Positions 31,979 through 33,942 of a stretch of 33,942 bases of DNA are shown in pieces. The translations under genes and the position numbers were made by a program. The notes beneath the pieces are model-generated. The model saw only the letters and a program-made list of their open reading frames with translations. It searched no databases and was not told the origin of the DNA. Source of the DNA: a virus; IMG/VR virus record IMGVR_UViG_3300048838_000970, positions 1 to 33,942 of that record; one strand, written 5' to 3'. Each line of letters starts with the position of its first letter. Position 1 is the first letter of the stretch.

Positions 31979-33037
31979 ATGGCAGTGAGGGTTGTTAAAG
32001 GAAAGCCTGGGTATTTCGATGTGATTATCTCGTGCGGTTATGAGCATATCATGTGTGACGGTAAGCAGACGCGTAAGCAGAAGCGATTCACCCAGCGCAT
32101 TGAATGCGCCGATCCGCTGCAGGCCATCGAGATTGAAAAAGAGTTGACGCGGCAATTAGGGCGTGCGGGAAACATGGTCATGAATGTGAACGACATCGCA
32201 TTGAAATATGTCCCCTGGGTCGATCAGCATCAGGCGGAAAGCACGGCAAGAAACAAAAAACGGATGCTGTTTTCGCATATCCTGCCCTATTTCGGCCGCA
32301 TGATCCCCGACTATATCGAGGCCGCCACCATCGATCAATACAAGAAAAAACGACTTGAGGAAACGAAGCGGGGGAAGATCCACAGGGAAATAAACCTGGA
32401 GATCCTGTGCCTGAAATCCCTGATTGCCTGGGGAAGCGATCCGGGCCGCCGGTATTGCAACGAGCCGACCGGGAAATTGAAACCATTGCCCTATCGTCGC
32501 CCGATCCCGGAGGTGTTGTCCAGGGAAGAACTTGAAGCGTTACTTGAAAATATGGGCGAAAAGCACCGTATTTTATACCATTGTCTCTATCATACCGGAT
32601 TGCGGTCGTCCGAGGCCAGGAATCTCCGGCCGGATGATGTGCATTTCAATCCGGATTTTCTTAGAGTTACGGGTAAAGGCGGGAAAACAAGGATTGTCTC
32701 CATGTCTGCCAGGCTGGCGCAGATGCTGAAATCTTGGCTTGAGAGTCATCCGGGCCTGACCGTATGCTTTCCTTCAAGGGTCAAGAGCAAGGGAACCGGA
32801 GTGCTGACGGATATCCGCCGGCCGTTATGGCGTGCCATGAAGCTGGCGGGCATAAGCAAGCGGGTGACGCCACACATGCTCCGTCACAGTTTCGCCACAC
32901 ATAACCTGGACGCTGGGGTCGATCTGAGAACCATCCAGGAGATGCTCGGCCATGAGGATGTAACGACAACGACGATCTATACGCACGTTTCTCTGGCGAA
33001 CCAGCAGAGTGCGATCAATAAGACATTCGGGGAGTGA
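31979..33037 (+). CDS. Tyrosine-type integrase
   Basis: A 352-residue protein; GGGAGG precedes the ATG at 31979. An N-terminal arm-binding part, a core-binding helical domain (VDQHQAESTARNKKRM) and the catalytic domain are visible. Catalytic residues: Arg in HTGLRSSEARNL, HxxR in HMLRHSFATH, His in LGHEDV and the Tyr in TTIYTHVS. It would integrate the phage at the tRNA site found just downstream. The C-terminus is complete. Confidence 0.95.
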   Translation: MAVRVVKGKPGYFDVIISCGYEHIMCDGKQTRKQKRFTQRIECADPLQAIEIEKELTRQLGRAGNMVMNVNDIALKYVPWVDQHQAESTARNKKRMLFSHILPYFGRMIPDYIEAATIDQYKKKRLEETKRGKIHREINLEILCLKSLIAWGSDPGRRYCNEPTGKLKPLPYRRPIPEVLSREELEALLENMGEKHRILYHCLYHTGLRSSEARNLRPDDVHFNPDFLRVTGKGGKTRIVSMSARLAQMLKSWLESHPGLTVCFPSRVKSKGTGVLTDIRRPLWRAMKLAGISKRVTPHMLRHSFATHNLDAGVDLRTIQEMLGHEDVTTTTIYTHVSLANQQSAINKTFGE

Positions 33038-33042
33038 AATGC

Positions 33043-33071
33043 GTAAGCAGAAAGTAAGCAGACAAGCAGAC
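33043..33071 (+). repeat. Direct repeats GTAAGCAGA, likely integrase arm-type sites
   Basis: GTAAGCAGAA (33043-33052), GTAAGCAGAC (33054-33063) and a shortened AAGCAGAC (33064-33071) lie between the integrase and the attachment core. An inverted copy, GTCTGCTTAC, lies beyond the core at 33209-33218. Copies on both sides of the core fit arm-type binding sites. The same 10-mer occurs at 32061 and, with one change, at 32073 inside the integrase gene. Confidence 0.7.
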
Positions 33072-33103
33072 AAAAAGGGGTTAAGCATAACGCCTAACCC
33101 CTT
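33072..33103 (-). terminator. Intrinsic terminator on the minus strand, possibly bidirectional
   Basis: A perfect 9-bp inverted repeat (AAGGGGTTA at 33075-33083, TAACCCCTT at 33095-33103). Read on the minus strand it is followed by five T's. On the plus strand only a weak TT-GATTT follows. It could stop transcription from the tRNA side toward the integrase and help end integrase mRNA. Confidence 0.65.
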
Positions 33104-33109
33104 GATTTA

Positions 33110-33154
33110 TGGTGAGCCCTGTCGGGATCGAACCGACAACCTACTGATTAAGAG
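33110..33154 (-). other. attP core: 3' half of tRNA-Lys(CUU)
   Basis: On the minus strand this reads as the 3' part of a tRNA: anticodon loop CTCTTAA, stem TCAGT, a perfect T arm (GTCGG-TTCGATC-CCGAC), acceptor strand AGGGCTC, discriminator A and CCA. The 5' half is absent: the bases beyond the loop do not pair as an anticodon stem. The anticodon CTT gives Lys. Phage genes lie on both sides, so this is best read as attP for integration into a host tRNA-Lys gene. Confidence 0.85.
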
Positions 33155-33160
33155 CTATGT

Positions 33161-33191
33161 GTATGTTATTTATTGTTCAAGAATAACATAC
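33161..33191. promoter_or_regulatory. 10-bp inverted repeat between attP and primase
   Basis: GTATGTTATT (33161-33170) and AATAACATAC (33182-33191) are exact complements with an 11-base spacer. It lies upstream of the primase gene and near the attachment core. It could be an operator or an accessory integration site. Confidence 0.65.
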
Positions 33192-33244
33192 AATTATCTT
33201 GCCTGTTCGTCTGCTTACTTTTTTGCTATGCTCCGGGGGTGCTC

Positions 33245-33942
33245 ATGGGCATAGCTCTTAAGCATCTCTCCGAAGCTGACCGCATCCGGATCGCCCGCGA
33301 CCTCTTCAAGGTCACCCAGGTTGAAGAATCCAAGGGCGAATTGCACGGCCTCTGTCCGATCCACGGGGAGTCAAACCCGTCTTTTTCCTACAATTACCAT
33401 ACCGATCTGTACAACTGTTTTTCCTGCGGCGCCTCCGGAGACCTCCTTCGCCTGTGGTCCGAAGTTCATGGCCATGGGCAGAGGGAGGGCTTTAAGGCGT
33501 TTTGCGAGGAATTCGGCATTTCTCCTGGAGGGGAACAGAAAAGTCGAGCGCCGGCGGCGCAGGGGGCGGGAGGCGGCGGCCCGGAAATAAGTCATGAGAA
33601 GGCCGTCGAACAGATGCGGATCGCCTGGGAGAAATTCCCGAAGCTGCCCGAACCATGGCTGGAGCGTCTGGAAAAAGAACGCGGATGGTCGCGGGAGTGG
33701 ATGGAGATCCTGGACCTTCGCCTGCAGACGTTCTATCTGAACAAGAAAGGCGGTCTGTCCCAGATCGACCTGCCTGAACGGATTGCCATACCGGTCATAG
33801 ATGAGCGCGGCGAAATGGTTAACGTTCGCCTGTACGCTCCCGGTGCTAAGCAGCACAAGATCATTTCATGGGCGAAATCGACCGGGCAGGCGCGGCTGTT
33901 CCCTGCAAAGCCCATGTATGAACATGGCATGAAGAATGCGGC
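33245..33942 (+). CDS. CHC2 zinc-finger DNA primase, cut by window end
   Basis: The first 232 residues of a longer protein that runs off the window. GGGGGTG precedes the ATG. A CHC2-type zinc finger is clear: CPIHGESNPSF then YNCFSCGASGDLL. A linker and the start of a larger domain follow (RIAIPVIDERGEMVNVRLY), similar to phage primase or primase-helicase proteins. It would begin replication primer synthesis. It is the first gene of a replication region beyond the attachment site. Confidence 0.9.
   Translation, partial: MGIALKHLSEADRIRIARDLFKVTQVEESKGELHGLCPIHGESNPSFSYNYHTDLYNCFSCGASGDLLRLWSEVHGHGQREGFKAFCEEFGISPGGEQKSRAPAAQGAGGGGPEISHEKAVEQMRIAWEKFPKLPEPWLERLEKERGWSREWMEILDLRLQTFYLNKKGGLSQIDLPERIAIPVIDERGEMVNVRLYAPGAKQHKIISWAKSTGQARLFPAKPMYEHGMKNA

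Follow-up and report, generated by a model that had tools for sequence, protein, structure and literature searches.

Close to its right end, the stretch of viral DNA analysed here (33,942 nucleotides, hereafter referred to as the window) very probably carries the intact phage attachment site (attP) of a temperate tailed phage, which has lambda-type packaging genes and a host in the Syntrophales. The basis of this reading is a tRNA-derived core, arm repeats, a terminator, the gene order, and relatives found in both integrated and attP forms (Table 1). An intact attP that targets tRNA-Lys(CUU) had already been proposed in the initial annotation, and both parts of the proposal stand: the arms on the two sides of the core match, the order integrase-core-primase-terminase recurs, and relatives of the integrase lie at tRNA-Lys(CUU) in chromosomes. 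These features, taken together, point to an intact attP and not to attL or attR. They link an uncultured phage group to the Syntrophales and name its chromosomal target.

Table 1. Features in and around the proposed attP (positions are those of the window)
Feature	Position	Strand	Evidence or remark
Window, complete IMG/VR record IMGVR_UViG_3300048838_000970	33,942 bases		linear ends
Small ORF, 66 aa	31735..31935	+	directly upstream of integrase; conserved in relatives
Tyrosine integrase, 355 aa	31970..33037	+	PF00589 1.8e-37; PHROG integrase 1.1e-51
Integrase-side arm: tandem arm-type sites GTAAGCAGAA, GTAAGCAGAC, AAGCAGAC	33043..33071	+	
Intrinsic terminator of rebuilt tRNA transcript	33075..33103	-	13-pair stem and T-run
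attP core, tRNA-Lys(CUU) 3′ half, from the 7-base anticodon loop to CCA	33110..33154	-	exact matches, tRNA rebuilding
Anticodon loop, probable 7-bp overlap region for strand exchange	33148..33154	-	identity limit, att-site model
Inverted repeat TGTATGTTATT/AATAACATACA, possible operator or accessory-factor site	33160..33192	.	sequence only
Opposite arm, one inverted arm-type site (33209-33221)	33199..33221	-	87% match over 23 nt to 33051-33073
DNA primase gene start, cut by record end	33245..33942	+	family matches

The core is the 3′ half of tRNA-Lys(CUU)

The core sequence, TGGTGAGCCCTGTCGGGATCGAACCGACAACCTACTGATTAAGAG, is the reverse complement of the 45-base 3′ half of tRNA-Lys(CUU). In the genome collection, 52 stretches match this 45-mer, with one degenerate position, exactly, and almost all of them belong to Syntrophales (Syntrophus, Smithella and uncultured relatives); the half-tRNA that the initial annotation had seen here is thus confirmed in bacterial tRNA-Lys(CUU) genes with the same 3′ 45 bases. 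The inner 35-mer of the core has exact matches in 12 other viral contigs. ARAGORN detected no whole tRNA in the window, and Rfam gave no match near the core. When the 5′ half of one of five host loci was placed before the 45-bp core, a recognisable tRNA-Lys(CUU) resulted in each case. As an attP core should be, it is identical to the 3′ part of the host tRNA gene, beginning at the anticodon loop, and is flanked by phage DNA on its left and right. Identity among partial cores stops at 33154; this limit, combined with the model for tRNA att sites (PMC8371274), suggests that the strands are probably exchanged at the borders of the anticodon loop.

We regard it as exceedingly unlikely that the tRNA fragment is a chance resemblance or a decayed remnant devoid of integration function. 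Although the attP reading comes from sequence, 45 identical bases, an exact border at the anticodon loop and arms on both sides argue against such an origin, as do the full catalytic set of the integrase and the relatives integrated at the tRNA-Lys(CUU) gene.

A near-inverted copy of the anticodon-loop edge of the core (33145-33159, 93%) occurs at 33250-33264, within the first primase codons. We considered it as a second core; because its bases encode conserved primase residues, coincidence is the more likely explanation.

Arm-type sites match across the core

On the integrase side of the core, tandem GTAAGCAGA(C/A) sites at 33043 and 33054 are followed by a truncated site at 33064. The GTAAGCAGAC sequence, present at 33054-33063 on the plus strand and in imperfect copies at 33043 and 33064, recurs to the right of the core at 33209-33218 on the minus strand. 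The 13-bp arm-type site AAAGTAAGCAGAC forms the longest inverted match between the two sides of the core; none of 1000 shuffles reached this length (top value, 11). By this similarity, putative arm-type repeats lie to the left and right of the core, as in an attP. The initial annotation had noted these flanking copies correctly; its inventory did not mention two more (GTAAGCAGAC and GTAAGCAGAA) at 32061 and 32073 (32061-32082), which fall within the first part of the integrase gene, some 1 kb away from the core.

If the right flank came from another element, its arm should not match the integrase-side arms. Each distinct related core locus that had sufficient flank (about 50 in all) was scored by its best inverted match across the core. 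The window ranked first (13 bp) and locus L002 next (10 bp); L010 had an 8-bp match at the expected place, which is not significant alone. Whole-tRNA loci, which have host DNA on one side, gave inverted matches that were 8 bp or shorter and scattered in position. The right arm starts at +55 in the window, +53 in L002 and +54 in L010 and differs in sequence among them, which would follow from a shared geometry in which every integrase uses an arm sequence of its own. In L107, whose integrase is the closest relative found in an attP context, the right-hand GTCTGC lies at about +10; thus, this arm geometry is not universal. Arm matching across the core offers a test, applicable to bare sequence, for telling a true attP in metagenomic contigs from attL, attR or junctions of unlike tandem prophages.

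The core could in principle be a junction of the last kind, formed by two unlike prophages at one tRNA gene, of which one contributed the integrase and left arm and the other the right flank and primase. Several Syntrophales contigs do hold more than one tRNA-Lys(CUU) 3′ half (L045 with L019, L020 with L025, L040 with L062), which are tandem integrations at this gene. Such an origin of the window is nevertheless very unlikely, because the right arm fits the integrase-side arms over 13 bp, which the arms at chromosomal junctions do not, and the gene order of the window recurs in related phages. The right segment also has a base composition typical of the window. The flank to the right is neither bacterial nor part of an unlike prophage, and we retain the intact attP.

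Genes flanking the core recur in related phages

Pfam and PHROG matches bear out the earlier assignment of an integrase to the left of the core and a primase to the right (PF01807 CHC2 zinc finger, 2.5e-12; PHROG DNA primase, 2e-16). The tyrosine integrase adjoining the core has its catalytic residues R212, K236, H302, R305, H328 and Y337 conserved in the alignment; as a single-protein query, it gave no match against the viral contigs. Homologs of the 66-aa protein are encoded directly upstream of many integrase relatives. It has two predicted helices and no family match at E ≤ 0.01.

The window's order was found in two other IMG/VR contigs: L107 (3300027896_005843) has integrase (53%), tRNA-Lys(CUU) 3′ half and primase (64%), and L111 (3300038429_000788) has integrase, tRNA-Lys(CUU) 3′ half, primase and terminase (61% each for the last two). 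While the primases are 61-64% identical, both contigs differ from the window in that their core is a T-stem variant, their arms have another sequence or position, and the core-to-primase distance is 1.3-1.6 kb as compared with 90 bases. In L111, moreover, the integrase is distant (26%) and a clear terminator is absent.

Integrated relatives were found as well. In a Syntrophales chromosome contig (G091:C10), an integrase relative (40%, L092/L101) adjoins a whole tRNA-Lys(CUU), beyond which lie relatives of the window primase (56%) and terminase (54%); the orientation of the integrase differs from that in the window. Further integrase relatives adjoin partial cores. Prophages joined at tRNA-Lys(CUU), for which the initial annotation had suggested a search, are thus represented by relatives of the integrase; an integrated copy of the window's own phage was not found. 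Across the 155 Syntrophales genomes searched, the integrase most similar to that of the window (51%) adjoins tRNA-Thr(CGU) and not tRNA-Lys, which counts against our explanation and indicates that the integrase family uses the anticodon loops of more than one tRNA. Another contig, L112, has a tRNA-Thr(CGU) 3′ half with a phage primase on its right and, on its left, where the window has the integrase, a PAS-repeat sensor gene that is probably bacterial by its sequence; we take it to be, in all probability, one end of an integrated relative, and it illustrates the appearance of an integrated copy.

Two side observations concern other elements. An approximately 14-kb element at tRNA-Lys(CUU) (L003 1-14092, L086 1-12188) has an integrase, a primase and a large terminase and no homolog of the window portal or other structural genes; it is satellite-like or a decayed prophage. 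In L075, the closest primase relative (80%), positions 1426-1580, directly upstream of the primase, resemble a tmRNA 3′ end. ARAGORN and Rfam did not confirm the resemblance, and the exact pattern is absent from 154 Syntrophales genomes; we consider it as a lead only.

The record probably lacks one segment of the genome

The initial annotation had raised the possibility that the window ends join in a circular assembly. They do not: no terminal repeat or end overlap was found in the 33,942-base record, and circular joining of the ends broke the primase frame. We therefore rejected a circle formed from the window ends, and the record is not a closed genome. The primase gene at the right end comprises 232 of about 800 residues; since the primases of relatives are 786-870 residues long, the record ends within this gene. 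The distance from primase start to terminase start is 4.4-7.3 kb in relatives and 2.2 kb in the window, so that about 2.2-5.1 kb is absent from the record. Homologs of a gene at the left end (473-691) immediately precede the terminase in L079 and L112, two relatives whose primase lies farther upstream; both window ends thus face each other across a single gap. A circularly permuted genome with a single gap is the reading that fits the window best. Its packaging genes encode a GpA terminase, a lambda-family portal and an S49 protease. Two neighbouring ORFs at 704-1539, directly upstream of the large terminase, start with similar residues, suggesting duplication.

For a linear record with a truncated primase and ends that do not join in frame, the description 'free phage genome' in the initial annotation holds as to the attP and exceeds the data as to 'free'. 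The DNA may come from a virion, a replicating form or concatemer, an excised circle or copies of this one phage arrayed in tandem, all of which would give the same junction. In the last case the attP-like junction would be real and the DNA integrated. A chromosomal array of this kind would yield an identical sequence; we consider it improbable, however, as host sequence is absent from the record and two phage copies would be required in most of the sampled cells.

Proposed integration and comparison with known systems

In the mechanism that we propose for this attP, the integrase would bind the arm sites flanking the core, with the anticodon stem-loop recognised as its core site, and attP and the host tRNA-Lys(CUU) gene would then exchange strands inside the 7-bp anticodon loop. 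Integration would join the host promoter and 5′ half to the phage 3′ half and terminator, so that the tRNA gene would stay intact beside the integrase, and the displaced host 3′ half would end up at the primase end of the prophage. The 66-aa protein is a candidate directionality factor for excision, by position only.

Earlier work (PMC8371274, PMC4383910, PMC10865867) gives a good account of integration at the anticodon loop with rebuilding of the tRNA, of tRNA-Lys-CTT cores about 45 bp long, and of elements arrayed in tandem at a single tRNA gene. The integration mechanism is well understood and the phage group undescribed; a DNA search of the INPHARED phages with the window gave no match. 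The att sites of the anticodon-loop class of tyrosine integrases (Islander class A, PMC4383910; reviewed in PMC8371274) resemble the window in having a 3′ fragment that extends from the anticodon loop to CCA, an adjacent integrase gene and a target gene rebuilt on integration; tandem arrays are known for this class, as at the present tRNA gene. The window differs from it in host order and phage group, and also in the terminator that almost all of its relatives have next to the tRNA fragment. Actinobacteriophages such as Hammy and DS6A (PMC10865867) have tRNA-Lys-CTT cores of 45-49 bp, and thus the same isoacceptor and a similar core length; the tRNA is likewise reconstituted, and putative arm-type sites have been described for related phages. 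Their hosts are unrelated to that of the window, and the comparison covers the att site.

A terminator accompanies the tRNA 3′ half

A strong terminator hairpin, oriented as the tRNA, lies directly past its CCA end, between the integrase gene and the core. Among 62 other distinct core loci, 60 have a fold of -13.2 kcal/mol or lower within 48 bases past CCA (mean, -19.1), the weaker folds being those of L077 (-3.9) and L044 (-7.0), and 58 have a run of four T past CCA. The fold is common to partial, phage-borne cores and whole tRNA genes. Given the location of the terminator between integrase and core, we take the element, as the simplest reading, to carry the tRNA 3′ half together with the terminator. 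We did not find this arrangement stated as a rule in the literature searched and do not claim priority for it. It is rather doubtful that elements at tRNA-Lys(CUU) as a rule carry the 3′ half with their own terminator and, in addition, that the two-helix protein is a new kind of directionality factor; if the former is true, every integration swaps the terminator as well as the tRNA 3′ half. We also compared terminators as a guide to the host; similarity to the closest whole-tRNA locus (L035) was too weak to name a species. The terminator adjoining the core suggests that these phages maintain not only the tRNA sequence but also the termination of its transcript.
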